Below are positions 689 through 61,453 of a stretch of DNA of 64,000 nucleotides, piece after piece. The DNA is taken from NCBI GenBank assembly GCA_037043015.1, contig CM073321.1, positions 22,937,001 to 23,001,000 of the forward strand, read 5' to 3'. A program made the translations under genes and the position numbers. The stretch is from Bryum argenteum (taxonomy: Eukaryota > Streptophyta > Bryopsida > Bryales > Bryaceae). The number at the start of each line of letters is the position of its first letter. The stretch's first letter is position 1. The notes beneath the pieces are model-generated. The model had not been told where the DNA came from. It saw only the letters and a list, made by a program, of their open reading frames with translations, and did no database searches.

Positions 689-1861
689 TTTAGCTCGAGT
701 CGAGCTAAATCAGAGTGGACAATCTCTCTGATTTAGCTCGACTCGAGCTAAATCTGGATACATCTCAGAAACTACTACGTTAGCTTGAGTCAAGCTAAAC
801 TGTAGTTGGCACCAGCCTCTACAGTTTAGCTCGAGACGAGCTAAACTGCTGCAATTCTTAAAACTAAGTCTAATTTACGAAGCAGTTCATGGTTTAGGGT
901 ATAAGGTATGACTTACCAAAATGTAGTTATACTAAAATTAACAAAAGACCACTAATAAAACAATATAGCAAACAAAAATCCGTCAACAGTTTAGCTCGAC
1001 TCGAGCTAAACTGTAAAGTAACGTGCCAACTACAGTTTAGCTCCAGTCGAGCTAAACTGTAGCTGGCACCAGCTTCTATAGTTTAGCTCGAGTCGAGCTT
1101 AACTGCTGCAATTGTTCACACGAAGTCTAGTTTACGACGCAGTCCATGGTTTAGGGTATAAGGTCTGAAATGTACTTACTCAAATTAACAAAAGACCACT
1201 AATAAAATAATAAGGCCTACATAGATTCAGTCAGCTACAGTTTAGCTCAGTCAAGCTAGACTGTACAGCCATTTATCCACTACAGTTTAGCTCAACTCGA
1301 GCTAAACTGTAGTTGGCACGGCCTTTGACAGTTTAGCTCGAGTCGAGCTAAACTGTAGCTGGGACGAGCCTTGACAGTTTAGCTCGAGTCGAGCTAAACT
1401 GTAGCTGGGACGAGCCTTGACAGTTTAGCTCGAGTCGAGCTAAACTGCTGCCCATATTAAAATGAAACCTTCTTTTTTGACGCAGTTCATGATTAAGGGC
1501 GAAGAATTAAGCTTACCGAAATCACATTACACTCTAATCGACACGAAACTTGCCTAAGTAAGCAACAAAGACTACATAGACCCGTCTACAGTTTAGCTCG
1601 ACTCGAGCTAAACCGTAGTCGGCACATGTGTCTACAATTTAGCTCGACTCGAGCTAAACTGTAGATGTTACGTTAGTTGACAAACAAGTTATCAACAAAT
1701 ACTTAGTTACGACGCAGATACAGGTTGAAGGTTAAGGCTTTGTTAAAATGACTTAAAATACAAAGTATAGATACTGTAGTAGCTTAAACCGTGCAGTTCA
1801 GCTCAGTCGATTTAATTTGCTCAAACCGCGAAAGCTGCTGTTTAGCTCGACTCGAGCTAAA
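689..1861. repeat. Array A: 27-nt palindromes at 46-bp spacing
   Basis: About 16 copies of a palindrome with arm CAGTTTAGCTCGA, one central G or C, then the reverse complement. Centres lie near 699, 742, 789, 835, 1000, 1046, 1092, 1250, 1296, 1342, 1388, 1434, 1592, 1648, 1805 and 1851. Within clusters the spacing is almost always 46 bp. The clusters sit in a higher-order repeat of roughly 250-350 bp whose linker (containing catggtttagggtataagg) is recognisable at 848-963, 1100-1212 and, more weakly, 1444-1570. At 789 both arms carry a matching change (AGCTTGA/TCAAGCT), so symmetry is kept. Isolated copies recur in gene 1 introns and at 6056. The array ends about 180 bp before the gene 1 open frame. 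Confidence 0.9.
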
Positions 1862-2044
1862 CTGCAAGTAGTACTAGGAAGGATAATCTAAGCTTCACGG
1901 ATATCCAAACCATCAACTAACACACTCCCCCTTCACAGTCAGGAGAAGGCAAGAGTTCAAGAGACGCTTCAACACTTCTTCAGACTTAGGCCATCAGATA
2001 TTGACGAGGACGATGGCGACGACACAAAGCAGCTGGACTGCTGA

Positions 2045-5000
2045 GAATTCAAGGATCCATCCAAAGTTGTATCCTGGTCTGCGAGATGGATTCCGTATAC
2101 TGCATTCCTTACCCTTGTCGTGACCTACGAAGGAAATGTAGAAGACCCAATTTCCATCGACATAGACTCCAAGCTCACAGACTTCGACCACGAAACGGAA
2201 AAGGAAATCATTGCTACATTAACAACCTTCAAGGAGAAGGACAAGGAGCAAGCTTACAACTACACCATAATGATCGATATCAAGCAGACTGGTTTTGACT
2301 TGGGCCAGTTAGTGGAGAGTTTAGAGCCGTCCAGTTTCGACGAAAATAAATCCACATTGAAACAGGATATGCTTACTAAAGCATGGCAAACAAAACAGGG
2401 GGGAGATCCGAAGGCCAAGCAGCTCGCGATCAAACTGCGATATGTAGTCTCTGCTCTGACGCATGCTGATATTATGGCGAAGACTATACACCTGAAAGGG
2501 AAAGCTCCACTGGAGGGTTCTGGGCTGACTGCAATGGGGAGCGGCGTACAGAGCAGGACCCCAACACGCCCGCAACGTGCTACAAGGCCTACCCCAACAA
2601 CCACCACGACTACAGACTCGCCTCTAATCAGGAGAGAAGCTCCCTTGAAGAAGTCAGCTGAGGCGAAGAAGAAAAAGAGCATGCTCATCCCCGAAGAGGA
2701 TGCTTTAACGGCTTTGAACGATGCTATTCAATGCATTCCGAAGAACGTTAATACCGTGGAGGAAATCGACTTCAAGAACGTCAACCTCATCTACCAGAAG
2801 TTCTTCACGGACTGTCAGGACTGTTTCGTCTTTCCTAAACCTGACACGAAGATAGAGGTCGACACGATGAGGATGATCAAGTCCCCTCCCCAATGGACCA
2901 TTCGTGCATTCGAGAAGAAGGGCAAGACCGACTTGATGAATTTTCTCATCAATATGCCCGACAGGTCCCAGAAGCAAACGCTCTGCGTCATGCCAAAATT
3001 GGATGTGAAGACCAACGGCCTGGAAGATATGCAGGACTGCGAGTTTTGGATCATCAACGGCCAACACAGTGTTGCCGCCTCGATGCTTGAGTCCAAAGTC
3101 CCAGAAACAATTCGCAAAGACTTCCGGGTATGGTCAGCTTTCGTAGTATGGACAAAGGATGAAGCCAAGCTCCGCAAGATATCGGCGTTTTATAACAGAG
3201 TGAACCACTTCACTCCATTTAAGTCGACATGGGCATCAAACATCCTTGCCGCCCGCACTGTGTGGGAGAACTACGGGTGCCCAGCAAACAGACATGCAGC
3301 AGCTGGGGTGGCGGATAAGCATGTGCAAACAAAGCGAGTTCTGTCACAATTTGCAAATTTTGACGTTAGTATTACCTCATGTTGCATCACATCTCTACCT
3401 TCTATCATAGCAAATTGATCCCCGTAGCAGTTTAGCTTGAGTCGAGCTAAATTGTCGTTGCAGTTTAGCTCGAGTCGAGCTAAACTGTCGCTGCTGCTTA
3501 TTAAACCCAACATCTTTACAACTGCTGAATTCCGGATGCACACTCGAGCTGGACTCGAGCTAAAGTGACTGCTCTCTTACACTCTGACATCTTACATTAC
3601 TTGTGGCATTGCAGAAATTCGTGGACTCCACTCGACATAGGTTCGCCATGATTGATGTCGCCAAGGCCCAAGTAGAGGTGAAGAACAAGGTCTTGTCCCT
3701 CACGAATGAGCTAAAGATGATCTCTGGGACCTATGGGCTGAGTTAATTGGAAGTGTCGCTCAGGGGACCCTTATCGACCCCTACTCCTTGAGGCAGTTGT
3801 GTGACAAGCCAGGATTCAAACCAGACAACGATCAAACCTTGTCGAGGGAATTTTTTAAGAACCTCGATAACCTATCAGAGTCGGACCATAGAAAACTCTG
3901 TTCACATATGTTGAATAGGTCAGGTCCGTCACGGAAACTGGAATACCCGAAGGTTACTCTCAAACAACCAGTAAACCTTCTAGAAGATTGCTACTCCGTA
4001 AAGGAGTACGTTGAACGGTTGAAGCGTAAGGCGACCGCCCAGCTTCAGATCCACAAGATCAGGCCCCAACTCGGAATCTTCAAGAACAACGAGTTCGACG
4101 TGGATGCGTGGAAGAAATTCAAGAAAGACTACCACGTCACGAAGGCCTCAAAGCGCGCACTTTTGGAATGGGGGATTCCTGATAAGTACTACGCAGATCA
4201 GAGGCAAACCCAGCACAGGAATACCAGCTGCGAAGATCTCTCTCCCTACGCAAAGAGGTTCTTCGAGGTGTTTCTGGAAAAGCGCGAAAAGTTTACTGGC
4301 CCTGTTGGTACTCTTATATTCCGTTCCTTCGAGCGCAAAACACCACAGAGGCTGAAAGATTGGCCTGAGAACAAATGGCCAGAACCTGCACCCAAGATGA
4401 ACGCCGGAATCATTGACTTTAGATTGGTTCCGGGTAGTTGAAGTTCCTCAGCTGATTCCTCGCCTAATCACCATTCTTCGAAATGTTCATGGCGATCTTA
4501 TCGTCCCAGAACAAGCCAGCTCTGACAGATGTTCCCTGCTGGTTATTTATTTGCGGTGGTGAGGGTCAATACGCGCAAGTTGAGGAGTTCGCGACAAATC
4601 CTGCATTCTTCCCAGAGTCGAATTATAAGCTGATCCCGTCGATGTACTATCCGTCCCCGCACGAACGGCTCGCTGGATACAACGCGAAAGCGAAACAAGC
4701 CTCAGAGCCTGTGCGTCTTCTCCTCATGATCGGGGGAAACGTGAACCTCGCGTGTATGCCACAGGCCGAGTATCGCGCTCCAAAGCACGCGCTTTACGAG
4801 AAGCCGCTGAAGTACAACAAGTCCCGGTATCACATGTACCCGATCGAGTTAAGGATGGATTTTTATTTGCAGGTCATCCAGCTTTTCTGTCAGGAGCAGG
4901 AGAACATTTTTCTTGTCTACGCCGGCGGAAAAGCAGTCTGCGCAAGCATGGTAAGCTTCGCTGTGGTTAAGCTCGATTCTCCTCGCTCGCATAGGAATCC

Positions 5001-5923
5001 CTACAGTTTAGCTCGAGTCGAGCTAAACTGTCAAGCTTGTTTCCAAATCATGTCCGCTTTAATTACAGATGATTTCCGTTTTTAAAGCTGCACTGTTTTT
5101 CTTGTAGATGTTGTCTCTCGATGCCTACGCTATATTCGACGCCGAAGACAGAGAGGACATCGACCAGGCGTACGACGAAGGGCTTACTCTAGATCCCATT
5201 GACTTCTCTGTGAACGGGTATTTCGTCGACAAAGTCGAGTTCCCGGAGGTTGGGGCCATGCTCTTGAAAGGCAAGCGCAAAGCTGTTGCGTCTTTGGATG
5301 ACGAGGCCCTCGACGATGAGGCGGACGTCCCCGACCGGGAGGACTCTGGATCAAGCGGAAGGCAACTTCACGGCGAAGGCAGCACTTACAGCCTTGGTTC
5401 CGGTGGAGATGACGAAGAGCAAGACATGGAAATTGACACGACCCCTCGGACACCGCAGGAGTCGCGTACCGCTCCCGGGCAAGGAGGAGGCAGAGGGAGT
5501 GCAAAGCGGAAACGTAATCCCATGTCGAAGGACTCACCCTCAAGTAGATTCAAGGCTGAGGAGAGTAACGAGTTGGCAGCACTACAGCGCAAGATTGAGG
5601 AGGAGACGACACAGCGGAGGAAGTTGGAAGAGCTCCTTGCACAACAGCAAATTGCGCAGCTGGAACGCGAAAAGAGAGACCAGGAACGCCATGACATGAT
5701 GATGGAGATAATGCAAAAGTTCACTGGAGGCAACGCATTAACTTTGGTGCGAACAATGGCAACCACTACTGCACCACATGCTGATCCTACTTCTCTGCAA
5801 CCACTCACGTCCCTGCCGCCTCCAACTACCGAGCCTTCCGTGCCTACGCCTTCCTCTCCTACGCCTGAATTACATCCTGAGGGAGACGCTGAAGAAGAAT
5901 CTACAGGTCCTCCTTCAACTTAG
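2045..5923 (+). CDS. Gene 1: ParB/DGQHR-like and methyltransferase-like fusion
   Basis: The N-terminal exon (open from 2045, ending at 3364) has a Lys-rich linker near 2640-2690 and then a ParB/DGQHR-like core with INGQHSVAAS at about 3052-3081. Intron 3365-3614 carries three array A palindromes. The next exon (3615-4950) covers a methyltransferase-like region ending in NIFLVYAGGKAVCASM, which aligns with the AdoMet motif of genes 2 and 4. Intron 4951-5107 holds another palindrome. The last exon (5108-5923) starts with a strand like that following motif I (YAIFDAED), then an acidic linker, a basic KRKRNP patch (possible nuclear signal), a coiled coil at about 5550-5720 and a Pro/Thr tail. The frame changes near 3740 and between about 4420 and 4520. 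These could be mutations, missed small introns or assembly errors. No convincing start ATG was found, so a 5' exon may be missing. The catalytic [DNS]PP[YFW] motif was not recognised. The domain calls are by motif only. Confidence 0.6.
3365..3614 (+). other. Gene 1 intron with palindromes
   Basis: Intron of 250 bp, donor gttagt and acceptor gcattgcag, phase 0. It holds array A palindromes centred at 3441 and 3474 and a degenerate one near 3553. Confidence 0.7.
4951..5107 (+). other. Gene 1 intron with one palindrome
   Basis: Intron of 157 bp, donor gtaagc and acceptor ttcttgtag. A perfect array A palindrome is centred at 5017. The intron lies just after the AdoMet-motif residues, close to where genes 2 and 4 also carry an intron. 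Confidence 0.7.
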
Positions 5924-6042
5924 ATTTTGGATCGAGTGTATAGTATTTAAGCTGTAAATGCCGGAAAACACATGTACATGTGAAATTTTGTATCAAACTC
6001 TAAGACACTTTTTTGTAATTAATATAGGCCTTTACTATTTTG

Positions 6043-6066
6043 CAGTTTAGCTCGACTCGAGCTAAA
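6043..6066. repeat. Isolated array A palindrome
   Basis: Palindrome centred at 6056, about 130 bp downstream of the gene 1 stop and before the phosphatase-like gene. It is the last array A copy I can see in the window. Confidence 0.85.
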
Positions 6067-6164: not shown

Positions 6165-7288
6165 ATGTTATTTTGGATGAGGAAGCAATCGATGTTCCAG
6201 TCATAGATGATGTCACGCTTGAATGTTATCGCCATGAGCGGGTTCCACCGGTGGAGGACACACTTAAAATGCATGGTGTCTCATACAGAAAATGTTGTTG
6301 CTGTCCGTGATGAGATAGATTGCACTGAGCAGTCACTCGGGTCAATGGGTGTCCAAGTTGACTTAGAGGAGAGCAATTATGATAATCAGGTATTTTCTGT
6401 TCCACAAACACTGCTCTCACCCATGCCATCGTTTCTGACCTTGAATTCATCGCACCAGTGACGAAAGCTCCCCAGTAATTTTGTCGTGGTGCGCCGTTTT
6501 CATTTCAGGTCAACGAAGCATCGGTCAATGATTTAATTTCTAGAGAAGGCATAGGTCGGGTTCCAAGGAAATCCTCCGATACTTGGTTAAATGTTGTTCT
6601 CGACCTCAATGGTATCCTCTGCAGTTGTACCCCATTTTGGGAAGCTAAAGGATACAGAAATCGTGACTTCCGTATTCACTCGGCCATGTTGCCAACCGAG
6701 GTGGGGAAGAAGCTTGTATGGGTGAGGCCCAATTGTAAGGACTTCCACTCTCGGGTGGCATCGTTTCCTACCATTACGGTTTGGAGTTCGATGATGAGAA
6801 CAACCACAGAAGCCATTTGTGATTTTCTGTTCGGTCCTATAAACCCTATAAGGCCACTACGAATACTTGGTCAAGAAGACTGTGACATGATTCCCTTGAA
6901 ATCTGGTGGGAGCCGACTATTGTTAATGAAGGAACCCGGAACTCAAAAGTCTATCTTCCTTAAGACCTTGTCAGCTCATCTCTTCAATAGCTTTGATGGT
7001 TTTTATACAGAAGCTAATACGCTCATCATAGATGATAGTCCGGTTAAGCACGTGCTTAATCAGCGGGAAAATGTTCTTTTACTACCATCTTGGTCTCACA
7101 AGGACAATAGGGCACACGAGGACTCTATTTTGTTAGATGAGGTTTTGCCGTATCTGTTAGATCTCCATGAGTTTGACGGTCCCCTTAGCAAGTTTCGGGC
7201 ATCGTTTCAATTTGGACGTGCCATGTTATATGATGATCGTGCATCATTAGATCTGTACAATGAAATACAAAATGCCTTAATAGAATGA
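6165..7288 (+). CDS. FCP1/NIF-type HAD phosphatase-like protein
   Basis: Two exons, about 6165-6389 and 6509-7288, are separated by a 119-bp intron (donor gtattt, acceptor catttcag, phase 0). The second exon has the layout of FCP1/TIM50/SCP-like HAD phosphatases: a hydrophobic strand ending in VVLDLNGILCSC (Asp codon at 6602), then VRPNCKDF and a strand ITVWSS, and later TLIIDDSPVKHVL followed by an acidic DEVLPYL segment. The family uses DxDx(T/V): the nucleophile Asp is kept, but the second Asp is Asn (DLNG), as in many plant NIF-domain proteins, so activity is uncertain. Upstream coding changes frame near 6275, and a further 5' exon is likely. It follows gene 1 on the same strand, with nothing showing a functional link. 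Confidence 0.7.
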
Positions 7289-8231: not shown

Positions 8232-8570
8232 AAACGTCGACGTCAACGAGCATTCATCCGATCGCGTATTGTCGCTTATGGTGGAACTCCGTAGTAGTTA
8301 CATCTAGTAGCATCAGAAGTAATTATGTACAGAATTTGATAGTCATCACTCTTGTATGACATATTTTGTGAATTATGATTGATATTTACAAGCGAATAAA
8401 TGGAATATTCTTTTATTCCCATCCTTTGTTCAGAGTGATGTCTCTATTTGCATATAATCATATCATGTTTGATGCAAGATCTAGTACTTTATGCTTAACA
8501 TTGATCGATATTTTAGATGATTTTTTTCTCTTGAATCTCCCAAAGTCATGCATATTTCCCAATATAACGA
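8232..8570. other. AT-rich spacer
   Basis: No gene, RNA or clear repeat seen. The right border is where the truncated retroelement begins. Confidence 0.5.
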
Positions 8571-9059
8571 ATATGGGTTTTTAGCAGCCAGGATTGCTGT
8601 CTTGGAGCAGCTAGATACTATACGACAGGATGCACAAGCAGTAGCTGGGACCAGACAGTGGAACCGGTCATTATGGAGCCAACAGCACTACCGGCAAATG
8701 GATTTCCAACTTGGCGACTATGTACTGTGGTATCCAAAAGGGCACAAGGAGCATGTTGGCAAATTCAAGAGCAGGTGGTATGGGCCTAATAGGATCCAGT
8801 ATCGGCTACCTAATAACACTGCCTTATTGGTCACAGTGGGACACTTTGACACCAATCCGGTAATTGTCAACATCAACAAATTGAAGTCACACCTTTTTTA
8901 TGACAAGACCCAACTTGTGACAGTGACTCCAACAATACTGCCCAAGGGACTGGTCGACCAGCAAAAGGGGGATAGTAGTTGCGAAGGCCAGAAAAACGCC
9001 ACTAAAGACCAGAAAGAACGACCAGAATATCAAAAAAATAACCATGGAGTTGGAGTGAG

Positions 9060-18350: not shown

Positions 18351-19250
18351 TGTCAAAACCCACCTCAACATCTACTTCCATGAAAAACATCTCATGCTCT
18401 AAACCTCACAACTAAGAGCTACCATTACTAAATTTCATGCCATAAACTCATGCCTTCTTCAATGGGTTTGCAATGTGAATCATACAAACTAGACTTGATT
18501 TGAGACCCAACCCAAGTGATTTCGTCCAAATCGGATATTCTATGAAGAAGTTATGGCCCTTCAAAGTCACAGTCCCTGACCACATTCGTCAACGAAATTA
18601 TCACCCACTTGGTCACTTTCATTCATGAATTGCCATGTAACCTCATTGATAGAATTATCTCATGATTTCCTCTCACAAAACACAACATCATAATCGATGT
18701 TAGTTTTCAAATTTGGTGCCCTATATCAAAACCCACCTCAACATCTACTTCCATGAAAAACATCCCATGCTCTAAACTTCACAAGTACGAGCTGCCATCA
18801 CTAAATTTCATGCCATAAACTCATGCCTTCTTCAATGGGTTTGCAATGTGAATCATACAAACTAGACTCGATTTGAGACCCAACCCAAGTGATTTCGTCC
18901 AAATCGGATATTCTATGAAGAAGTTATGGCCCTTCAAAGTCACAGTCTCTGACCACATTCGTCAACGAAATTGTCACCCACTTGGTCACTTTCATTCATG
19001 AATGCCATGTAACCTCATTGATAGAATTATCTCATGATTTCCTCTCACAAAACACAACATCATAATCGAGGTGAGGTTTCAAATTTGGTGCCCAATGTTA
19101 AAACCCACCTCAACATCTACTTCCATGAAAAACATCCCATGCTCTAAACAACACAACTAAGAGCTGCCATCAAAAACTCATGCCTTATTCAATGGGTTTG
19201 CAATGTGAACCATACAAGCTAGACTTCATTTGAGATCCAAAACAGGTGAA
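18350..19250. repeat. Tandem repeat of about 370 bp, three copies
   Basis: Units begin 'caatgtcaaaacccacctcaac' at about 18350, 18720 and 19095; the third is shortened. The first two are nearly identical and each holds one TTCGTCAACGAA palindrome (18585 and 18958). They merge into array B downstream. Confidence 0.85.
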
Positions 19251-23460: not shown

Positions 23461-23671
23461 ATGAAATTCAGAACTTGGTGACGTTGTTTGGATATTGTTC
23501 TTTACAAGATCTCATGAGATAGTTCATGTGATTAACTTTTATATTCATCAAACAACTCTATTTCTTTATAATTGATCATTGTTGATTACTGAATTTCATT
23601 GGTACTCTAAAGCGGATGCCACTTTTGAATGCCCCAATGTGACATTGTCATCTGAAAGTGCTCCAAGCAAG

Positions 23672-30725: not shown

Positions 30726-30909
30726 AACAAAATTTTGTTGATTTGGTCATCGCACTATCTTAGTCAACAAAAGTTTCTGTTGCTTTCAGCAATAAATCAA
30801 AAATCTGATAAAATGGTCAATCTAGTGCCCCAAGCAACAAAAATGTGTTGATCTTTTGTTGAATTGGTCACGATTTTCTAGTAGTGAAAGGTCGGTATTG
30901 TTGGATATC

Positions 30910-44683: not shown

Positions 44684-45550
44684 TTAGAGTCGGAATCCAC
44701 AAACCATGCGGAAAATGTAGCATAGGTGCTTGCAGTTATACCATCCTCCACGCCCTTTGTGGTGCAATGCCATATCTGTGAAATCAATACAAGTGCAGCT
44801 AGGGAATGATCCTATCACAACCTTGTACTCCGCTGCCTCTAACCCGGTGGTTGATTTCAAATCAATGACTGCTCCGATACCCGGGCTAGGAATAAGGGTG
44901 ATCCGGGCCATCTTTGCGTGTAGAAGCGTTGCCGACTCCCACCTTGCAAGCTGCTTCTCCGAGTTCTTACGAGTGACAAAACGCTTGCAAAATTTGTCGT
45001 TGCGCACCGTCATGTACTTATATGCTTGTGTTGGAATTGGGATGCTTTCAATTTGATCCGCAATGGCAACGTTATATCCAAACTGACGCTCCATTGGCAT
45101 TGGTCGTTTTTGTTGTAGCTGGAATCCCGCTTGTTGAAGTGCCAAGACCTCACGCATAGTTAGATTTGTTCTTTTCTGAACAGGCCAAACCGTTGGGACA
45201 TCAGGAATTAGATCCGTAATCCACCTTCTACGGGGGCCTTTAACACACCTGTTCAGATCAGCAGGGCAGAAGTAGAAAAATTGCTTGACGTCGAGGTTCT
45301 TGGGGCAATCGTGATGAGTCCCATGGAATGTAGGTGCTGGGCCTTTTGGCCCACTGATCTTCTGCTGGCATTGCTTTGACACGCTCCGGTTTCCAATACA
45401 AGTCGGATTGCTATTTGCAGGAACACGACGGATATGCCATTTTTCTTTCTCACAATCATCTTCTCGGACTTCAGTGACATGCACAATTGTGAGGTTAAAT
45501 CCCGGTGTTCCGGTTGTAACTCACAAGTTGGGCCGTGAGGGAGGAGTGCA
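44684..45550 (-). pseudogene. SWIM-type zinc-finger C-terminal part of a MULE-like protein
   Basis: The minus-strand frame opens with FNLTIVHVTEVREDD and WHIRRVP, then has a Cys/His-rich block (CPKNLDVKQFFYFCPADLNRC) and ends in a SWIM-like finger: SCTCIDF ... WYNCKHLCYIF. SWIM fingers of this CxC...CxH form close MULE/FAR1-type transposases. On the same strand, 2.1 kb upstream, lies the matching transposase-like region (47.6-49.1 kb), so the two probably belonged to one gene, split by an intron or insertion. Ends at 44684. Confidence 0.55.
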
Positions 45551-47642
45551 ATCAATTTGACCTTCCAAGCAATGGACACCCTAACAACCACCTAAACAAT
45601 CAATTTGCTCATTCTAAGAAGTCCGGAGGAAATCGGGCAGCGCTTCCGCGCCTAATCCCAAAATTCCGAAATTTTAATCTTAAATGTGTGAATTCAGCCA
45701 AAAATTTGGCAGCGCTTCCGCGCTACCCTTAAACGTAGTACACCCTAACTACGCAACCAGCATTCCAGCAAGCTAATTCATTCGAATAAACAACCATCAC
45801 ACATTCATAAGGTAACATAAATCAAAAACAAAAACAAACAATTAATTTTTTGGCAACTACTTTTGCCATTTTTAATAAGGAGATTCACAAATCACTCTAC
45901 TACGTTCAACACACACGAGGTGATAAGACAATCACGGATGACAAAAGCAAGAAGAAGGGAGAAGAGGGCTCCCTCTCTAATATCACCCTGTCTACCCTCC
46001 GTAATATCACGGAGGGAGGACAGGACTGTGATTGTCGATGAGCTGCGGCGTTCTGGGTCGGCTTCTACCGGTGCGCAGTCGCCTTGGCTGGGCCGGCACA
46101 GCTATCGCCGTTGCCGAGATGCCGTCGGTGTTGAGCTGCCGTAGTGGGTTGTTCCACCGTGACCGCTGCTGTTGTTGCGGTCAATGTTGTCCGCTCCTGC
46201 GCCGTCCCTCGGTCGACGGTCGTCTCCCACCTCGGCGCCGGCTACCTTCTTCCGGAGCTTGTCGGTCGGCCGGTTCTTACTCTCCGATGCACTGGCTCTG
46301 TCGGCCGTGGTGCCGTGGACCGCCGTTACGCACTGATCCGCTTCAAATCGGGAGCTGATACGCACCACTCTTGGGCTCGACCACACGGCTCACGCTCCCC
46401 ACCAATTTCGACGCTGTGCAGAGGTGTAGCAATACACTCGACGCCGACAGCGGCCACTCCAGATCGGAATTCGATGCTGGTGGTCGACGTCGCCGATGTC
46501 GAATGTGTCGAGCCGGTGTTGTTCGGCTGGCTCTCCGCCTTCGCTGCTCGTCCTCCTCCTGCGGATCGATCTGGTCTCCTCCGATGCTGCCTCAGCAGCG
46601 ATCGTTCAGTTCTAGCGAGGTGCTCCCGATGATCAGCTCTCACTGACCGCCGTACTCGTCGTCGTCGGGGTATCGTGGACGCGGCCGTGATCGCTGATCT
46701 ACTGCTGCTGTCGCCGTGGTAGTATCGATGCTGCCGGCTCCTCCGATGCTGGTGCCGACCTCGATCTGTGTCGGTGCTGTTCGGTGGCCATTCCGCTGCT
46801 GGCGGCTCGGTTCCAGTTGCTGGCGACTCCTGCGCCGCCTCGGTGCTCGTCTCGCCTGACTCGCGGCGCTGCCCCGACGAGCCGCTCACCCTCGTGTCAA
46901 TCCTCTGCTTCGTTGCTGGCGTGAATCTGCTACGTCTGCCGGGCTTCGACGCAGCTGAATCGGCACCTCCCCCACGTCGCTCGAACCTTGTCGCCGCGAA
47001 GGATGCTGGTCATCCTTCGGTCGAGCCATTACCGGCGCTGATTGCCGTCGATAACTCCTGGTTCCGCTTCGGCGGCCGCTGCTGAGCACAGATCCTGAGA
47101 TGGATCGCCGCTTTCGCTCCTTCCCTCCTCCACAACGCTCCTGAAACACAACCACCCGGAAATACCACGCAAAACTCACTCTGATCCTTCTCCCACTCAC
47201 ACCATCCCACAAAGAAACCTCACCAAAACCTCTACTGCAATGCCACTACGAAGCATTCAACAACGTTCCATGCGCACACGTACTCAATAAAGCACACCAC
47301 ACAAAAATTGACCCAAAAACCAATCTCGATCACTCCTTCCACACACACTCCTTCCACCCAAAAAACTTCTAACCCTAACTCCCACCCTCTCTCCCTAGTT
47401 GGAGACTTGGATGGGGCAAGTTTCATCCATTCCGCACGGATGAACTTTGTTCATCCGGCAGTTCATCCGCAGGGTTTTGCCAATTCCCTAGCTTATTAAC
47501 TAGGAGGAAACTTGAGCAATTTATGAATGATGATAAAGCACTAAAACATAACTAAAACATGTTATGAAACTTCGACGCAATTTAATATTACTAATTTGGA
47601 ATAGAATAACAACCACCGGGCCATCTAAGTAGAGCCCTCTAA
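45551..47642. other. Unrecognised GC-rich intervening DNA
   Basis: Separates the two MULE-like parts. A GC-rich centre (46020-47080), full of tcg/cgg triplets, gives long overlapping frames on both strands with no domain. 'gcagcgcttccgcgc' occurs at about 45638 and 45710, and its reverse complement at about 43735, linking it to the gypsy 3' region. Possibly another inserted element, not identified. Confidence 0.35.
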
Positions 47643-49074
47643 TTATCCTAGAAATTCCGGCACCGAGGGAATTAGCCTAAATGCCCCAATTGGGGATTTT
47701 GAACGTAAAAATATTATACTAGTGCTTGTAGATAGTGTTTCGAATAAGCGTGAACCGTTTCGGCGGTTCACAACAACGGGTGCAGTTGGAACTAGCGCAG
47801 TCGCTGGAATATCGTCCACGTCTTCGTCATCTAATTGAATAGGAGTAGAAGGAGATCTCTGAGAGCGTGTTCTCCTTTTGGAGTGCTTTGATTGAGAGAA
47901 GTTAACCTTGTCCAACCGACGGGAATCGTCATTAGCACCATATTGCGTTTCAAAACGCGTTTTACTTGATCCAAAAACTTCCTCGCCGGCATAATTAGGG
48001 TCCGCAACCAGGAAGTCCTTAGCATCGGAGATGGCTTCCATGGCTTTGTACATTGTGTTCGGATTCCTACTTCGATGTGCAAGCCTGAAGAGCAGCACCT
48101 CCTTGTCCAGTCCAGTTCCACCGCAGTTACCGTGTAGAAAAGCGTTGTAACGTGAGCATTGCATGAATGCCCTGACATAATTGTCCATCGATGCTTTTAA
48201 AATATCCTAAACGTCTTTACCGGACTTTTTTAATCACACAGCGTGGATGGTTTCAGCCAAATTGTATATTGGCATTTCAGCTTTCTCTTCATCAATAAGG
48301 TCCTGCACAAAGTCAAATTAGGTCATTTTGACTGTTGGAAATGGAAAACCAACTGTTACGTAAATCTAAAGAAATGCGAGTACAAGAATATGTGGATCGT
48401 GTAGGAAAATGAATTATAGGAGTGGCGGCACAAGTAGGCATGTCCACAGAATAGAGGTATGAGAAGAATGGAAAGTGCCGTGGTGGATGGTACGTCGAGA
48501 GAAATATTTAAGCATATCACAGAAACAAAAGTTAAAGCACGCTTACGAGATCCATGAAGGCTCCCCATTGCCTGTAACGGAAATGCCACCGCGCCAGCCA
48601 GGAATCCATGGCTGGCAAATTTGAATCTGTAACAGCTTCACTTGACACCCACCACGATCGAATTGCAAGGTAGCGTGTCTCGGCCTCGTCCATATTGATT
48701 GCATCCTTATACTGTGTACAGATTCCCTTATGCTCATCGCGGAGCACCGGAGTTCCGTATAAGTTTGTTACTATAAGCATGCATTTTGTCCAGTGGAGTA
48801 GACACGATCTCTCCTTCTCTTTCATGGGCACAGTCTTGTCTCCCGTCCCGTAAATCTCTCGAACAGCGTTCCAGTTGGCTTGAGCGCTGTCAGCCATAAA
48901 AGCTTTGAAATTGACATTGACGACACCATGACGCGCCATAACTTCGTTAAGCATCCTCCAAAGGTATGATTGTGCGTCCTTAGTCCTAGATTGCATGTCC
49001 CAAATGGCAATTGTCATCACCTTGGCGTGTTGACGATGTGACCCGCCTTGTAACACCGCTGTAGCACTGTCCAC
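47643..49074 (-). pseudogene. MULE-like transposase core, decayed
   Basis: The first frame (49074-48532) reads VMTIAIWDMQSRTKDAQSYL, then VNFKAFMADSAQANWNAVREIYG and HWTKCMLIV. This pattern of a strand, an Asp-bearing strand and a helix recalls the MULE RNase H-like transposase. The next part (about 48280-47643) reads MPIYNLAETIHAV, then DNYVRAFMQCSRYNAFLHG, and ends in a basic/acidic linker (STPIQLDDEDVDD). Two in-frame nonsense codons precede Met 48188: TGA near 48240 (likely TGG) and TAG near 48212 (likely CAG). A donor near 48540 and an acceptor near 48290 are plausible. Family assignment is by motif only. Confidence 0.5.
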
Positions 49075-49300
49075 TATTGGTGTGTTGGTGTGACCATGAT
49101 CCTTGTAACACCGGTGCAGCCCTCTCTAATAACACCGGTGTAGCTCCGTGCACTGCAAGTGTGATAGTGTTACTCTAAGCACTGAACTATAAAAACCCCA
49201 TGGTTGGTCGTAAACTTCATCCGTCAATATCGCATCCATAGGGTGTCCGATCGCGGCAAATCAAACCATTCTGAAATCCACAGGTCGCGGATAACACCGT
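49060..49300. repeat. AACACCGGTGT palindrome cluster
   Basis: 'taacaccgctgtag', 'taacaccggtgcag', 'taacaccggtgtag' and 'taacaccgtggac' occur at about 49051, 49106, 49130 and 49292. The third has the perfect core ACACCGGTGT. They lie directly upstream of the minus-strand MULE-like frame. Confidence 0.6.
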
Positions 49301-49611: not shown

Positions 49612-50171
49612 CCCATCCGGTGCCGGACCATAGTACAGGCGGTTAGCATCTGATACTTACTTGGGCCGCATCACATAAACCACATCACAAAAGAGTGAGT
49701 TGAACCGATTGAAGCCAATTCTCTGCCACTTCGACATGGTAGCTAACGCCTCCCAGATGAGCCCTAAACACTGCATCCGGTACCCGATGGGATAAAATGG
49801 ATGTCTTGCGCACTGAAGCAGCGGCACTGAAGCAGCGCCCGTCACGACACCGAATGGCACCTAAGACCCCATCCGGTACGCAACGGGGGCAAGAAGAAGA
49901 ATATTGCATCTCCTCGATGATATTTTGTCGCGCTTGTCATGCCTACTATTTGGCAACTCTGACCTCATCGGGTACCCGATGGAGACTTTCGATTGAGTTT
50001 TTCTTCATGGCCAGGACAAGATCATCAATGCAAACGAGGTAAGTTTGCATGATACTTTCGCTAAATCTTCAAATATGATAATGAAACCTTTGTTGAATGT
50101 ACTTGTATTTATAAATGTCAAAATTATATGGAGAACTATTGATTTGTATTTCCCATCGGGTACCCGATAGG
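49612..50171. repeat. Array C: CATCGGGTACCCGATG palindromes upstream of gene 3
   Basis: Perfect CATCGGGTACCCGATG at 49966-49981. Near-perfect copies at 49774-49789 and 50153-50171, and weaker ones at 49612-49630 and 49869-49887. The copy at 50153 is inside a likely intron (50039-50223, gtaagt...ttttccag). GC-rich DNA at 50330-50600 adds relatives with altered centres, such as TCGGGCGCCCGA. From about 49720 on, this region is homologous to the region upstream of gene 4. Confidence 0.85.
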
Positions 50172-50223: not shown

Positions 50224-50870
50224 GTGAATTTGCAATCGGGGAAGGGGTCTGGCGCTTGCTGGTGTCCAAGGACCCTCACTTGCCGCAACCCAGCGCGTGG
50301 GCGCAACTTGAGGTGGGTGAGGGCTGCGTTGCAGTCAGGTGGGGGTCGGGTGGCCGATGGGGTCTTGGGACCCGCACTTGCTCCACTGCGGCGCCTCCAC
50401 GCCGGAGGCCTGGGTTCGCCCCTCGGGGACGCGGTCGCCCCTCCCAGCCATAATCGGCCATGTAGGTGGGGTCGGGTGCTCGATGGGGCCCCGGGCGCTC
50501 ACCTACCCCGGCCCCAGAGCCGCTCTAGGCCGCATCCTTACTCCCCGATGCGGCTGGCGTGGGGAGGTCGGGCGCCCGATGAGGTCCCGCGACCCGCAGG
50601 GGCCTTACTACGCCGGGGCCTTACCTCGCTCCTACCAGCCGTCGAAGGCAGCGAAGGACACGTCGAGACAAAGCGAAGGGCGCATCGCGACACAGCGTGC
50701 CGAGGCGACAACATCAAACTCCAACTTCGACATTGCGCCCAAGAACTATCAATCACCTTATGAAGATGCTCTCATTGTCTGGCCTCGTTGGAATGAGCTT
50801 AGTCAGTTGGAAGGGGAGTCGGCTTTGACGAACACAACATTCGCCACACCGGCACCTGAGAATTGACCTA
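50224..50870 (+). other. GC-rich leader of gene 3
   Basis: GC-rich irregular repeats of about 110-130 bp (tggggtcgggtg, cgatggggcc). Then a conserved exon-like segment FDIAPKNYQSPYED at about 50730, matched by VDIAPKNYQSPFEA upstream of gene 4. It may encode the protein N-terminus: a TGA near 50864 separates it from gene 3, and gene 4 has CGA at that codon. Confidence 0.5.
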
Positions 50871-50881
50871 CAACTCGATCA

Positions 50882-52600
50882 ATGCATACAAATGACATGG
50901 ACGATGCTGATCGATCGGCGAAGATGTCATTGACCTCAAGGCTGAATAAGGGCAAAGGTCCCGTTAAGGAGAGCGTCGTTGAACGCGGACGGCCTGTTGA
51001 GGAGTCGTGCTCTTTTCACGAGATAGTGGTTGAGGGTGGACATCCCGATGAAGGACCCCAACCAGCTGAGGAGAGTTTGGTGGATCAAGATAGCATTCTC
51101 TTGACAGAGGCTGAGGTCAAGGAGAGATTAGACAGTCTTGTAAGCCAGGAGGCTGTTCACACTGGATCCCGGATAGACGCGCTTCGTTTGAAGCCCAAAC
51201 AAAAGTCATGTCTCAACATTCCTCTTTGTAGGCTGAAGGGACTGACAGCTATAAGACCAGCAATAAAGAATGATATCGAACTTCTTCAAAGTCGATTTGT
51301 CAATGGAGGATACATTGAGGGCGCGGCTGTCTTCTAGGTTGCATTAGAAGACAACAACTCCAGTTCCCATGACGTGACTGAGGAGGACATGTTGTCGTGG
51401 AGCGACAATTGGCGTGCTTTTAACGACGAGTTTGAAGCGAAATTGAAAGATGGTCCAGTTTTGCAACAGCTCTCGAACAAAATGTTTAATGTTTGGGATG
51501 TTAATCACGGGTTGCAGGCTTGGCTACCAATCATCAACAGAAAACACACTCATGACATTGAGTGGCATTTCTCCGATGATTGCATCATTCTGGTCGTCAG
51601 GGGTAGAGTTCTGGACACGCTTTCGATGTTGTATGACATAAATCAATAAGTTTCTACCTTCATAATTCTTTCAACCATTTCAATTTGAAATTTAAGTCAA
51701 TCCGTTTTCTCATTTATTGCTTGCCGTTGATGGATTTTCAGGCGCAATCAAAACAGCCATGTGAAGGAGAATCTTGTGCAGCAGTTATATCGACTGTATG
51801 CAGTTGGAAAAAATCCTCTTGAATATTTCAAGGGCTTGGTGTCAGAGTCTGATTATAACAAAGCAGAGACCAAAAGTGTTCGGACTTGGTTCTCGCTTAC
51901 GGTTCCTGGGCTTACAAATTTCCTCTACCAGGTTAGTTATCACATATGAGTCCCTGCCAACATACACTTTTGTAATGCCACTAATAAACCTTTTTTGTGA
52001 AATGCAGAGTGAGATATCAGAGGCTGCTGATACTGCAGCAAAGAATTTCGAGAAGATGTTTCCGAATAGGGACGAATGGACAGGCCACGGGATTAACGAA
52101 TACATCCACAAGCATGTAACAGCCAAGAGAGGTTCTTTAGAACGTGAGTTGAAGAAGCTACTTCCCATTTTTGATGAAAAGTACGAAGGTAAATTCATCG
52201 AGAAGGTGAAGGAGCATTACGAGACCTTCCATCTGCCCGAGATGCTCATTGAGAAGCTGTACGCATGTGCAACCTCTGCAATGAACATCAACTCTAAGCT
52301 CTCCTTGTTGGACAGATGGAACTGGAACCTAAAGTCCAGGGAGGAATTGAAATTCCCAAAACAAAAGTTCTTCAATGAGCAATTCAATTCCTTCTTGAAC
52401 AAAGCTACTTTCTGGGCACAGGTTAATGTCGGCAATGGAATTTGGACCTTTGGAATGTCTGTCTTCTCATGGAACGTCACTTCTCCTTTTCTTGCAGCTT
52501 TCAGAAGATTGTCTAACCCAAGTAGTTGGTGCTCTCAAGGCGTTGAGGGTGGACGTCAAATATGAACCTGAAGGGCGAGACCGAATCATGCAAATTCAGG
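50882..52600 (+). pseudogene. Gene 3: truncated ParB-like/methyltransferase-like paralogue
   Basis: Nearly identical to the first half of gene 4. Exons: 50882-51645, 51742-51931, 52008-52421 and 52498-52600. The ParB-like region has LNIPLCRL, RPAIKNDIELLQSRFVNGGY and WDVNHGLQAW (about 51493-51522), where gene 4 has the canonical DGNHR. A TAG at 51335-51337 interrupts the frame and is shared with gene 4. The first donor is ataagt (51646) against gtaagt in gene 4, so splicing is probably lost. The later exons encode a helical region with HYETFHLPEMLIEKLYACA. Homology to gene 4 stops at 52600, exactly where the CACTA-like arm begins, so the methyltransferase-like half is missing. Confidence 0.75.
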
Positions 52601-56280: not shown

Positions 56281-59200
56281 TTATGGCGTATCAGAGTCTG
56301 ACTCTGCTGCACTTAGGTCCAAATATTGCCTAACCCGACTATCTATACGAGGTGGTGGGCTCATTTCATCACTAGAATCAAATATGACACTCGCAAACGC
56401 TCGAGCCATGGATGCTGCATAACTTGGGAGCTGGTACGAAGGCGATAGGGTTCGAAATGTGGACTGAAATCCCCGCTTTCTCAATATGAACGCCGGACTG
56501 ATTAAACTACAAATAACACAATTTTGATGAGTATTCAGAATCACTAAGCTATGAAATTTACAGACTTCAAGAAAACTTACTTACAGCAAGATTCGAATGG
56601 CGCATCTGAAATAGGTGAATCTTCCATATCTGGTATTAATGCTGGTTGTGGAGATTCTGGTGTGTCGGACAGAGCAGCTTGAAGAGGAATGAGAATCTCC
56701 TCGAAACGTTTGGAGTCACTCTCCATTGCAAAGATGTTGCGATTGAGAGTCATCGCAGTAATCACGGAGGATCCTGCAATGGAAGAACGTCGCTAAACTT
56801 CAGTCCTGTGAATACGACATATAGGATAAAATAGATTCAAGTATAGTAATCTTACCAACTCCAGTTTTGAAGTCCACAATTGTGCCATTTTGAGGGCAAA
56901 TTCCGTGAATTAAGGCTTTTAGAAGAAGCGTAGACTTTTGCTTTGCACCTCGCGAAGGTCGCCCATCCAACTTTCTGCACACAATGTCATCTACTCCCTG
57001 AAGGTTGTACAACATATCGTCATTGCTGAGATCAACATTAGGTACATACTGATTGGGGTTAATTTCAAGTGGCTTTGGCTGCCTGGAGACCTTCTTGTCA
57101 AGAGAGCGGACAAGTAGAATAGCTTTGAACATGTTTGTCTGCAATACAATATTTCAAGTTAATATACGAAACAAATAAGATGTAAACGCTTCAACAGAAT
57201 TCAAGATCGACTAAAAACTTACTGTTTTTGATTTGTTAACGTGACTGGCAAGAGGTAACGTTTGAAACACATTCCATTCGTCAAACACCTTTAGCTTGAA
57301 ATTCTTGAAGTAAGTCATGATTTCCTTTTTTATCGTCGAAGAGTCCGGGTAGAAGAGCAGCATAACCGCATCGTCATGCAGATACATCGATGAGTATTGC
57401 ATGACACTCTTCAGGAAGGAAACGTCCTGCATGTTCCAGTTTGGAACTGCGTGTGGCGGATCACAGACACCAGGCACGCGTAATCCGTCTGGATAATCTG
57501 CAATAATCAGATCAACAGCTCGAATAGGCTCTTTATCTGGCTTCATGAGCTTCCCATCCTTGTAAAAAGTCCTCCCCTACACCACCTGAATTCCATATTT
57601 GAAGTGTGAGTAACTTGAGTTGGAAACATGTTCAATGAGTTTGGCTTTGATGTAGTACCTCATCTATGAAGTCTTTCATGTCGTCGTATTCTTTCGGAAA
57701 TGGCTTCTTCATCGTACTCAAGTCCATCCAGAGCACAATCAGATCGTTGACAATAAGGCACTTAGATGTTGATTTCGTCCGCACCTGCTGAGGATTGACC
57801 ATCATTCGCACCATGGAGCTTGGGCAATGCTGCATTACGGGGGCAGGTGACTCGCTACGGGCGTGCTTCGGTCGTTTGCGCCTTGATGACTCTGCAGGCA
57901 AGTAGGCAGGCGTCACACAACGTGGACGCTCTGCTGGGGCGGCCTCATCATCTTCTAGATCATCGATCAGAAGCCTTTGTTGGCGGCGGTCTACCAATGG
58001 CAAGTTGGCCTCTTCAATTTCAGACTCCGGTGGCTGGGACCCGAGTACGAATTGGCTTTGAGTATGATCTGCCTTGTGAAGTGCAATTCTTGTCCTTGGG
58101 GTTGCATGTGGTACTGCTACATCCATAGCAGGTGCTGGTGTTGCAAATAATGGAGCCGGAGCTTGCACATCGGCCTGACACTCACCCTTTCTAAGGCGCT
58201 TCTTTGATTTCTGGGAATTCATTCTGCTTTGGTGGCGTGGTATCCTCGACTTCATCCAAGTCCACCACGTCCTTCGATGTTTAAGAAGCCAGGTTCAATC
58301 TTTGTTGAGTTGATCCACCTCCTAACTCGGACACTTGTTTCCTCTCGGTACCCAAGTACCAACCACAAAAATCAAAATGCCGACGCCCATACATGGTCCG
58401 AATTCTTTGTTGTGTACATGCATGTGTCTTGAGTTGGATCACCCAATTCTCAAAATACACAGGGAAGCTCGGCGAGCTTTTTGCTGCAAGCAAGCCAAGC
58501 TTGAAGTAGCGGTATAACACTCGACGAGCTGCCTCCTTGAAACCAAGCTGGTCCTCCGGTTGGTGGCCTTTGTAGATGCCGACTGAGTTCGCGTCTTTGG
58601 GATACACCTTCAGGCGGAATTCTTGATAGAATGCCGAAACCCAGAGTCTGCAGCGCATTTGTTCAACGTAGTCTTGGATTTGCATGATTTGGTCTCGCCC
58701 CTCTGGTTCGTAATTGACGTCCACCCTCAATGCCTTGAGAGAACCAACTACTTGGGTTTGACAATCTTCCGAAAGCTGCAAGAAAAGGAGAAGCGACATT
58801 CCATAAGAAGCCAGATATTTCAAAGGTCCAAATTCAGTTGCCGACATTACCTGTGCCCAGAAAGTAGCTTTGTTCAAGAAGGAATTGAATTGCTCATCGA
58901 TGAACTTCCGTTTTGGAAATTTCAATTCCTCCCTGGACTTCGGGTTCCAGTTCCATATGTCCAACGAGGTGAGCTTGGAGTTGATGTTCATTGCAGAGGT
59001 TGCACATGCGTACAGCTTCTCAATGAGCATCTCGGGCAGATGGAAGGTCTCGTAATGCTCCTTCACCTTCTCGATGAATTTACCTTCGTACTTTTCATCA
59101 AAAATGGGAAGTAGCTTCTTCAACTCACGTTCTAAAGAACCTCTCTTGGCTGTTACATGCTTGTGGATGTATTCGTTAATCCCGTGGCCTGTCCATTCGT

Positions 59201-60399
59201 CCCTATTCGGAAACATCTTCTCGAAATTCTTTGCTGCAGTATCAGCAGCCTCTGATATCTCACTCTGCATTTCACAAAAAAGGTTTATTAGTGGCATTAC
59301 AAAAGTGTATGTTGGCAGGGACTCATATGTGATAACTAACCTGGTAGAGGAAATTTGTAAGCCCAGGAACCGTAAGCGAGAACCAAGTCCGAACACTTTT
59401 GGTCTCTGCTTTGTTATAATCAGACTCTGACACCAAGCCCTTGAAATATTCAAGAGGATTTTTTCCAACTGCATAAAGTCAATATAACTGCTGCACAAGA
59501 TTCTCCTTCACATGGCTGTTTTGATTGCGCCTGAAAATCCATCAACGGCAAGCAATAAATGAGAAAACGGATTGACTTAAATTTCAAACTTAAATAGTTG
59601 AAAGGATTATGGAGGAATAAACTTACTGATTTATATCATACAACATCGTAAGCGTATTCATAACTCTTCCCTTGACGTCGAGAATGATACAATCAATGGA
59701 GAAATGCCACTCAATGTCATGAGCGTGCTTTCTGTTGATGATTGGTAGCCAAGCCTGCAACCGGTGATTGCCATCCCAAACATTAAACATTTTGTTCGAG
59801 AACTGTTGCAAAACTGGACCATCTTTCAATTTCGCTTCAAACTCGTCGTTAAAAGCACGCCAATTGTCGCTCCACGACAACATGTCCTCCTCAGTCACGT
59901 CATGGGAACTGGAGTTGTTGTCTTCTAATGCAACCTAGAAGACAGCCGCGCCCTCAATGTATCCTCCATTGACAAATCGACTTTGAAGAAGTTCGATATC
60001 ATTCTTTATTGCTGGTCTTATAGCTGTCAGTCCCTTCAGCCTACAAAGAGGAATGTTGAGACATGACTTTTGTTTGGGCTTCAAACGAAGCGCGTCTATC
60101 CGGGATCCAGTGTGAACAGCCTCCTGGCTTACAGGACTGTCTAATCTCTCCTTGACCTCAGCCTCTGTCAAGGGAATGCTATCGTGATCCACCAAACTCT
60201 CCTCAGCTGGTTGGGGTCCTTCATCGGGATGTCCACCCTCAACCACTATCTGTTCAAAAGAGCGCGACTCCTCAGCATGTTGTCCACCATCAAGCACGTT
60301 GTGCTTATGTGAGCGCGAGTCTTCAACAGGCCGAACTGATTCAACGACGCTCTCCTCTGAGGAACCTTTGCCCTTATCCAGCATCGAAGTCAATGTCAT
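56281..60399 (-). pseudogene. Gene 4: most complete ParB/methyltransferase-like fusion
   Basis: Minus-strand exons: 60399-59627, 59530-59341, 59264-58851, 58775-57659, 57585-57223, 57138-56856, 56773-56581 and 56506-56281, all with GT/AG borders. The N-terminal half is ParB-like: LNIPLCRL, LLQSRFVNGGY, then WDGNHRLQAW with the DGxHR signature (about 59748-59777). A helical middle follows, then a linker with a basic KRPKHAR patch. The C-terminal half has the permuted order of N6_N4 methyltransferases: LIIADYPDG where the family has (D/N/S)PP(Y/F/W), a strand DDAVMLLF, then NGTIVDFKTGVG-GSSVITAM with an intron at the hyphen, RNIFAMESD, and the end RQYLDLSAAESD. Motif IV is eroded, so catalysis is doubtful. 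TAG 59938 (shared with gene 3), TGA near 59488 (gene 3 has CGA) and TAG near 57578 break it; the frame around 58230-58285 is unclear. ATG 60399 chosen as start; a leader exon may precede it. Confidence 0.75.
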
Positions 60400-61250
60400 C
60401 TACGTCACTCAATCACGTCATTTGTATGCGTTGATTGAGTTGCAGGTCGTTTTTCAGGTGCCGGTGTAGAGAAGGTTGTGTTCGTCAAAGCCGACTCCCC
60501 TTCCATCTGACTTAACTCATCTTTTTGAATACGGAAATGGAAAATTAGTCAAGAAAATTTATACAAGAAATGAGTTACAAATCTTATCCTATATCATAGT
60601 CTGCCTTCATATGATGGAGCTCATTCAAGTGAAGGCAGACATAGGGAGCTGCTTCAAAAGGTGATTGATAATTCTTGGGCGCAATGTCGACGTTGGAGTT
60701 TGAGATAATCGTCTCGACATGTTGTGACTTCACTTTCAAACAGCGCCTATGGGCTAAGGTTGGGGCAGCAAAGGGCGCCAAGACCCTGTCGGGCACCCGC
60801 CCTCGTTCGTCGTTGCCTTCGACGGCTGTGAGGCCCCGGCGATTTAAGGCTCCATCCGGGGCCCGACCCCACCACGCCAGCCGCGGCAGGAAGTCGCGAT
60901 GCGACCAACATGAGCGCTTGGGTCGTGGTAGGTGAGAGCACCGGGATCCCATCGGGCATCGGACCCTCCTCCGGACGGCTCCAGCGCTCAAACCCCAGCC
61001 TCTGACGTCGAGGCGCCGCCGTGCGTCGGAACCCCATAGGGCACCGGACCCTCCTCCGGAAGGCTCCAAAGCTCAAATCTCGGCCTATGATGTCGAGGCG
61101 CTGCCGTGCGCCGGGACCCCATCGGGCACCGGACCCTCCACCGGACGGCTCCAACGCTCGAACCCCGGCCTCTGACGTCGAGGCGCCGCCGTGGAGCAAG
61201 TGCGGGTTTCGTGACCCCATCGGCCGCCCGACCCCCACCTGACTAGAATG
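60400..61250 (-). other. GC-rich leader of gene 4
   Basis: Holds the conserved VDIAPKNYQSPFEA segment (about 60640-60685, minus). Beyond it, three or four imperfect GC-rich units of about 90-110 bp (60930-61215) are built on 'ccatcgggcaccggaccctc', 'cggctccaacgctc' and 'gacgtcgaggcgccgccgtg'. Each unit contains a degraded array C half-palindrome. Confidence 0.6.
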
Positions 61251-61453
61251 CAACCGTCAACCAGCCCATGGTGCACCCACGCGCTGGACTAAATCGGCCG
61301 CCCGACCCCTTCCATTGCAACAAATCTAATAGAAATACCCCATCGGGTACCCGATGGGCTTTTAGGTTGCCATTGGGTGTCGTGACAGGCGTTGCTGCAG
61401 TGCCGATGCGCGGTGCGCGAATCATCCACTATACCCCATCGGTTACCTGATGA
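61115..61453. repeat. Array C palindromes upstream of gene 4
   Basis: CCCATCGGGTACCCGATGGG, a perfect 20-nt palindrome, at 61339-61358. An imperfect CATCGGTTACCTGATG at 61438-61453 and degraded copies at about 61115 and 61218. Flanks (gtgtcgtgacaggcg, agatgagccctaaacac) match the region upstream of gene 3, so gene and array were copied together. Confidence 0.85.

Follow-up and report, generated by a model that had tools for sequence, protein, structure and literature searches.

Sequence-specific anti-silencing by a transposon is, to our knowledge, known in detail only for VANDAL, whose elements have a MULE transposase. The present analysis concerns a stretch of 64,000 nucleotides of the moss Bryum argenteum (the window; C1:22937001-23001000, C1 being contig CM073321.1), which holds four copies of a gene for a ParB/methyltransferase-like protein (genes 1 to 4) and, close to them, arrays of short motifs: motif A (TTTAGCTCGANTCGAGCTAAA) at gene 1, motif B (TTCGTTGACGAA) at gene 2 and motif C (CATCGGGTACCCGATG) at genes 3 and 4. 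It is proposed, with a probability of roughly 0.55, that such an array and its gene together let a large DNA transposon recognise itself, with a VANC-like anti-silencing function.

As shown by Hosaka et al. (2017, PMC5735166), VANC21 binds motif arrays in the non-coding parts of its own transposons; its sites, arranged as tandem repeats, occur in introns, between genes and upstream of the transposase gene. VANC proteins remove silencing and VANC6 has different motifs (PMC5735166); the arrays turn over as tandem repeats, and a VANC6 motif is also present in an unrelated repeat (PMC5735166, PMC10398659). What the Bryum elements would share with this system is the pairing of a transposon accessory protein with short-motif arrays in the non-coding parts of the element; arrays of subfamily-specific motifs in the same element are likewise found here. 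The two differ in several respects. VANC has DUF1985/DUF287, whereas the proteins here are ParB/methyltransferase-like, and no match to DUF1985 or DUF287 was found in Pfam scans of their exons. The VANC21 motif is 9 bp long and in one orientation, whereas motif A is a palindrome of 21-33 bp. Anti-silencing has been shown for VANC, whereas for the moss system it is a proposal. As for the transposase, the gene-1 element has DUF7869, and the other transposase-like protein found here is without a Pfam transposase match but may yet be a distant MULE.

The second comparable system is the Sola1-1 type transposon of Ectocarpus, in which an accessory gene with ParB-like and methyltransferase parts lies opposite the transposase. 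The Bryum elements resemble it in the character of a giant DNA transposon and in an accessory gene that runs opposite to the transposase, and probably also in the two domain types, which are weak or sub-threshold matches here. They differ in their moss host, in having at least two transposase types and in a methyltransferase motif that is apparently lost in the copies read, and the main text on Ectocarpus is without mention of palindrome arrays ('palindrom' occurs 0 times). Bacterial ParB loads on DNA in a CTP-dependent manner and spreads from its site; the likeness to ParB-parS lies in a ParB-like box and in palindrome clusters beside the gene, and the differences in the absence of a Pfam ParBc match and in the many dispersed transposon copies. 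The sites of the arrays also differ from known bacterial parS.

The original prediction held that no eukaryotic counterpart had been described. That view finds no support, because the Ectocarpus accessory gene and the VANC proteins of Arabidopsis, with motif arrays of their own, are known. Transposon genes with ParB and methyltransferase parts are known already from Ectocarpus, and the closest working analogue is VANDAL/VANC. Among open-licence articles in PMC, a scope outside of which most subscription journals fall, no paper was found that joins ParB/methyltransferase-like transposon genes with motif arrays.

Arrays, genes and elements

The arrays predicted beside genes 1, 2 and 3/4 are real, with 19, 20 and 5 sites in the window, respectively. 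Array A comprises 19 matches to TTTAGCTCGANTCGAGCTAAA (≤ 3 mismatches; 0.00 expected). Its main cluster of 14 palindromes, mostly CAG-TTTAGCTCGANTCGAGCTAAA-CTG, lies at 689..1861, upstream of gene 1 (2045..5923, + strand; open reading frames (ORFs) 2045-3418, 3710-4441, 4468-5085 and 5108-5923, splice sites not fixed). Three further copies (3431, 3464 and 3544) occupy 3431..3564, within the putative first intron of this gene, one lies at 5007..5027 in a later inferred intron, and one at 6046..6066, 3' of the gene. Array B (18585..22721) lies upstream of gene 2 and consists of 20 TTCGTTGACGAA-type sites, all at distinct positions (≤ 2 mismatches); the whole window has 41 strand-matches to TTCGTTGACGAA versus 5.5 expected. 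Array C has five sites with ≤ 3 mismatches (49774, 49966, 50154, 61341 and 61437; 0.12 expected) and is weak by exact count. Three of these CATCGGGTACCCGATG sites, with 0-1 mismatch, lie at gene 3 (49774..50169) and two at gene 4 (61341..61452). By eye, degenerate motif C half-sites are also seen at about 50.3-50.6 k and in 85-bp tandem repeats upstream of gene 4 (60938..61193). In the window, about 0.2-0.95 kb separate an array from the first long ORF, in agreement with the predicted upstream position; motif A, as described above, is not confined to that position, its intron and 3' copies being absent from the original prediction.

Genome-wide (258.8 Mb in 25 contigs, C1 accounting for 44.09 Mb), there are 5878 exact sites of motif A, 44 of motif C, and 126 + 181 strand-matches of motif B, whereas the reversed motifs used as controls gave 0, 0 and 2 for A, C and B, respectively. 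Chance palindromes can be ruled out, all three arrays being above expectation. In 21 of the 22 copies compared, some non-trivial word recurs more often than any did in one letter-shuffle (at best 2-3 copies); the margin is narrow for gene 3 (4), for gene 4 and L037 (5 each) and for L027 (6).

When the genome was searched with the proteins of gene 1, gene 2 and gene 4, a first look gave 842, 1059 and 807 candidates, and scoring covered the best 150 of each; motif-to-gene counts for A, B and a further motif, CTGCCGGTACCGGCAG, refer to the sites and genes so listed. The many dispersed matches lying inside elements indicate that genes 1 to 4 belong to high-copy DNA transposons, and the idea of a host family of four paralogues is rejected.

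The element that holds gene 1 spans about 17.6 kb (C1:22927935-22945577), as delimited by comparison of nine C1 stretches around motif A sites (the window copy, W, and S2 to S9). The element has imperfect terminal inverted repeats, about ACCCCATATTCGTTATATTGGGAAAT, with 82% identity over 38 bp at the left end, which precedes window base 1 by 9065 bases (C1:22927935). The right repeat is at 8540..8577 of the window, and the right end is the point where similarity to two other copies breaks off. The element is inserted, by eye, in a Ty3-type integrase reading frame, a piece of which resumes at 8578; if a 4-bp TTAG target duplication is assumed, as judged by eye, the flanks are in frame. A DUF7869 gene (PF25273, E 1.6e-42) lies on the left side of the element, divergent from gene 1. 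Motif A sites are found 5' of gene 1 and of the DUF7869 gene, in introns and 3' of gene 1; they are internal, at least 3.5 kb from the left end and at least 2.5 kb from the right. A gene-1-type gene is present in eight of the nine C1 stretches (W and S2-S8) and a divergent DUF7869-type gene in six (W and S3-S7); S9 (10 kb, two A sites) has no gene-1-type gene.

Genes 3 and 4 are of one type. Gene 3 (50867..52600, + strand) is a gene-4-type copy broken off near 52600, and divergent to it lies a transposase-like gene with a SWIM-like Cys/His cluster (44684..49125, - strand; ORFs 44684-45520, 47643-48206 and 48532-49125). Gene 4 (56600..60399, - strand) has a ParB-like box (VWDGNHRLQAW), a helical domain, a methyltransferase-like domain and in-frame stops, and transposase ORFs divergent to it lie to the right of the window (67123-70344, + strand). 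Since the exon compared shows 94% identity between genes 3 and 4 and both have the same in-frame TAG, they are near-identical copies of one element type and not two independent cases. A 1097-aa relative (L039) of the transposase, whose SWIM-like character was assigned by eye, has 64 public relatives and no Pfam transposase match, although a distant MULE could still go undetected. Terminal repeats of the gene-4 element were looked for and not found.

In this element type the two genes stand head to head with motif C in between. Of the 44 exact motif C sites, 32 lie upstream of a gene-4-type exon at a distance of up to 4.5 kb and 40 upstream of a transposase exon at up to 16 kb; at least one of these placements holds for 42 and both hold for 30, and no site lies within 4.5 kb downstream of a gene-4-type gene (84 of the 150 gene rows and 55 of the 150 transposase rows were used). 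Random sites near a gene averaged 0.2, with a maximum of 3 in 1000 trials.

Gene 2 (23576..26700, + strand) consists of a ParB-like ORF (23576-24484) and a downstream methyltransferase-like part that is, by eye, decayed by stops. Forty-eight of the 100 listed motif B sites lie upstream of a gene-2 exon on the list and no more than 6 kb from it, where 0.7 were expected and 500 trials gave at most 6; four lie on the downstream side. Some gene-2-type copies elsewhere have a head-to-head transposase of the SWIM-like type about 9-10 kb away (C1:13270258 with 13279535, C4:5452372 with 5461987, and C1:10404317 with 10393855); no such transposase was seen beside gene 2 in the window.

Sites and protein lineages

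Motif A site and protein lineage co-vary. The compared loci fall into three gene-1-type lineages: W, S8 and S3/S7. The S3/S7 proteins are about 31-36% identical to gene 1 in the two best exons, and that of S8 is 49-64% identical by exon. With the motif masked, the upstream stretches (7.8-11.5 kb) gave 0 blastn matches between lineages, as against 86-735 unmasked (four between-lineage pairs, S7 versus S8 not among them), and each of these stretches holds 9-17 exact motif A cores, the invariance of the core positions in the motif profile being by construction of the search. This contradicts, for motif A, the possibility that the arrays are neutral tandem repeats hitchhiking with the element. The tandem units, the fast turnover in gene-2-type copies and the common ancestor of subfamily copies would suit such repeats, but the flanks have diverged beyond alignment between lineages and the exact cores persist; we regard it as extremely unlikely.

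The outer arms of motif A read CTACAG...CTGTAG in W and AGCCCA...TGGGCT in S3 and S7, and are mostly AAG or TAG in S8 and L025. Genome-wide, the arm classes number 1323 (CAG..CTG), 1221 (CCA..TGG) and 70 (AAG..CTT), with only three mixed CAG..TGG sites. When 88 of the 1323 CAG, 47 of the 70 AAG and 53 of the 1221 CCA sites were set against the listed C1 gene-1-type rows, 80 CAG sites lay by genes of at least 75% identity, six by genes of 57-66% and two by none; 42 AAG sites lay by genes of 57-66%, five by none and none by genes of at least 75%. None of the 53 CCA sites lay by any listed gene. The CCA loci S3 and S7 do have genes, at 31-36% identity, and the third CCA locus, S9, has none in its 10 kb. 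The CAG and CCA sites tested all come from the first 2.6 Mb of C1 and from few elements, so they are not independent.

Gene-4-type copies carry related motifs: CATCGGGTACCCGATG occurs in genes 3 and 4, CATCGGGCACCCGATG in L029 (71% identical exon), CCTGCCGGTACCGGCAGG in L030 and L037, GGTGCCGGCAG in L036 and GCGCCGGCGGAC in L038, and a GTGGCGGCACAG-like motif in L027 and L034 and, together with others, in L035. The arrays of L030 and L037, and those of L027, L034 and L035, are alignable and hence not independent. GGTAC is enriched in six of the 11 gene-4-type arrays, CCGGCA and CGGCAG in five each, and the half-sites align by eye as GGTRCCSGMWG. In a Mantel test on six loci with hand-picked 11-bp half-sites, r was 0.48 (26 of 720 permutations), and with the exact motif C half it was 0.56 (13 of 720); this correlation between half-site and protein is suggestive, the half-sites having been chosen by eye.

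Motif B is found in 20 of 33 listed gene-2 copies of at least 76% identity versus one of 41 of at most 66% (C1 and C2, with sites listed up to C2:34508390). Diverged gene-2-type copies differ in their arrays, L033 having a long palindrome with a unit length of about 379 bp, and L026, L031 and L032 having direct repeats. Their distal upstream DNA is mutually unalignable. GACGA, the half-site of motif B, is enriched in four of five mutually unalignable gene-2-type arrays (0.003 words expected if independent).

Domains, proposed action and rival readings

In the C-terminal part of gene 4 there is a match to PF01555 (N6_N4_Mtase) with E 7.9e-5 and 23.1 bits, versus a curated cut-off of 26.7, and a match to a PHROG DNA methyltransferase (E 8.3e-7). 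The predicted methyltransferase-like character thus finds support in gene 4, below the Pfam threshold; the gene-1-type protein had no methyltransferase family match. Gene 1 has no relevant Pfam match, its ParB-like part ('INGQHSVAAS') and degenerate methyltransferase-like part being recognised by eye only. DPPY is the catalytic motif of N6_N4 DNA methyltransferases. Every one of the five gene-1-type copies read (W, S2, S5, S8 and L025) has, as its counterpart by eye, either IDFRLVPG or IDFRLIPG; gene 4 has ADYP, and gene 2 is also without DPPY, genes 2 and 4 being decayed copies. The catalytic motif looks lost in the copies read.

The ParB-like exon was studied in an alignment of 62 sequences (the ParB-like ORF of gene 2 and 61 public relatives), at least 90% of which have the pattern IPLCR...GNHR..AW. 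Seven of the 62 weakly matched PHROG 1033, 'ParB-like partition protein', with P0066 giving the best E (0.0021) in a match that covers the GNHR box. Other weak Pfam matches were to DUF6551 (five sequences), DUF1015 (two), DndB (one) and CB_ParB_C (one). ParBc of Pfam was matched neither by the four proteins nor among the families matched by the 62 sequences, a search of PDB with the ParB-like sequences gave no ParB match, and NCBIfam and PDB gave otherwise nothing useful. Viral or prokaryotic relatives of the exon were searched for and none was confirmed. One public relative is KC19_VG030900 of the moss Ceratodon purpureus, on a contig of 110.5 Mb.

In the VANC-like reading, the ParB/methyltransferase-like protein would bind the short motif, at palindromes as a dimer of two-fold symmetry, with the methyltransferase-like part serving as a non-catalytic DNA- or S-adenosylmethionine (SAM)-binding domain. 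The binding sites would be the clusters that separate the transposase gene from the divergent accessory gene and, in the case of motif A, those in introns and at the 3' side as well. Binding would activate the promoters of the element or keep them free of host silencing chromatin, and this action would be restricted to copies of its own lineage, as that of VANC is for VANDAL. This reading fits best because the sites lie between the genes, in introns and 3', and are lineage-specific.

A more particular version, to which we give a fairly low probability, is that the logic of ParB-parS has been turned into a eukaryotic self-recognition and anti-silencing system: dimers would load at the palindromes and spread along the element as a clamp, the dead methyltransferase would contact DNA or SAM, and the outer arms and the protein would co-diverge into mutually exclusive specificity classes. 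The same sites might instead serve an autorepressor, the protein binding the arrays between the divergent genes and limiting the transposase as copies rise. The high number of sites and their concentration between two divergent genes would suit such copy-number control, but the intronic and 3' motif A sites are superfluous for simple promoter repression and the high copy number speaks for no tight limit, so that it is unlikely. It is quite unlikely that the arrays are binding sites of the transposase, used in cis in transposition and independent of the accessory protein. A transposase-like gene is indeed present in these elements, and the DUF7869 protein, too, varies among the motif A lineages (47-63% identity by piece in S3 and S7), so that co-variation with the transposase is inseparable from that with the accessory protein. 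Transposase binding sites are typically subterminal, however, whereas in the only element whose two ends are known the arrays occupy the interior, with some sites in introns. Self-marking, in which site recognition by the ParB part would lead to methylation of the element by an active N6-adenine or N4-cytosine methyltransferase, has in its favour the methyltransferase-like domain of gene 4 and a published suggestion for the Ectocarpus protein; with DPPY not seen in the copies read and a gene-1 type without a methyltransferase family match, we consider it very unlikely.

Several observations weigh against the VANC-like reading. We infer both the binding of the protein to the motif and its effect on expression, and the assignment to ParB, with the PHROG match in seven of 62 sequences and none to ParBc, is weak by sequence. 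Sites within the same element do not count as independent, and some co-variation of whole elements would follow from common descent anyway. Six of the 88 CAG sites adjoin genes of 57-66% identity, and within a locus the symmetry of the arms is not clearly above that predicted by the dominant arm of the locus; the arm-class effect therefore reflects element lineage, and arm symmetry is not supported as independent evidence. The palindromes, which the original prediction took to be universal, are not so: several relatives have direct, non-palindromic arrays, and one of the 22 compared copies, L028, has no array. Nor are all sites placed by the genes. The possibility that the palindromes are spread without regard to the genes is rejected for motif C by the placement of 42 of its 44 sites, and the eight of nine stretches and the listed sites support the same for motif A; for motif B, 52 of the 100 listed sites are not followed by a listed gene-2 exon within 6 kb. 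For the palindrome CTGCCGGTACCGGCAG (112 sites genome-wide), 30 of 50 listed sites form six arrays with a period of about 190 bp and no listed gene nearby. These arrays (C1:679338, 10429005, 13693014, 19561324, 19979338 and 20024750) are perhaps non-autonomous elements using the site of another element.

A further point against it comes from L026 and L032, whose ParB-like exons are 99% identical and whose arrays are unalignable. Thus the array can be replaced faster than the ParB-like exon changes, and the predicted co-variation of protein and palindrome, mostly borne out by the placement and lineage of A, B and C, fails as a strict one-protein-one-array pairing at this fine scale. By eye, the segment just N-terminal of the ParB-like exon is strongly different between the two copies; the pattern suggests recombination or fast N-terminal evolution.

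Further features and significance

Downstream of gene 1 lies a cargo gene of the NIF/CTD-phosphatase-like type (6479..7288, + strand; PF03031, E 2.7e-12). PF03031 cargo follows the gene-1-type gene in S2, S4, S5, S7 and S8, at 26-96% identity to the window copy, and a PF03031-type gene lies elsewhere in stretch S6. By eye, the window also has a hAT-type transposase-like ORF (30878-32275, - strand) and Ty3-type gag and polymerase ORFs (35636-42486, + strand).

Among the listed gene-1-type rows, internal stops were seen by eye in about 70 of about 118 on C1 versus two of 32 off C1. C1 looks like a graveyard of old gene-1-type copies, and is perhaps a poorly recombining or sex chromosome; beside this idea it may be recorded that the family relative in Ceratodon carries the locus tag KC19_VG.

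If the VANC-like reading is true, anti-silencing by an unrelated, ParB/methyltransferase-like protein would represent convergent self-addressing in other transposon types, and self-addressing would supply a function for the unexplained ParB-methyltransferase genes of algal transposons. The mutually exclusive specificity classes of the ParB-parS-like version would, if real, allow several transposon lineages to share a genome without cross-activation. The thousands of exact sites in lineage-tied arm classes would then amount to a specificity code for binding work and, possibly, for epigenome editing.

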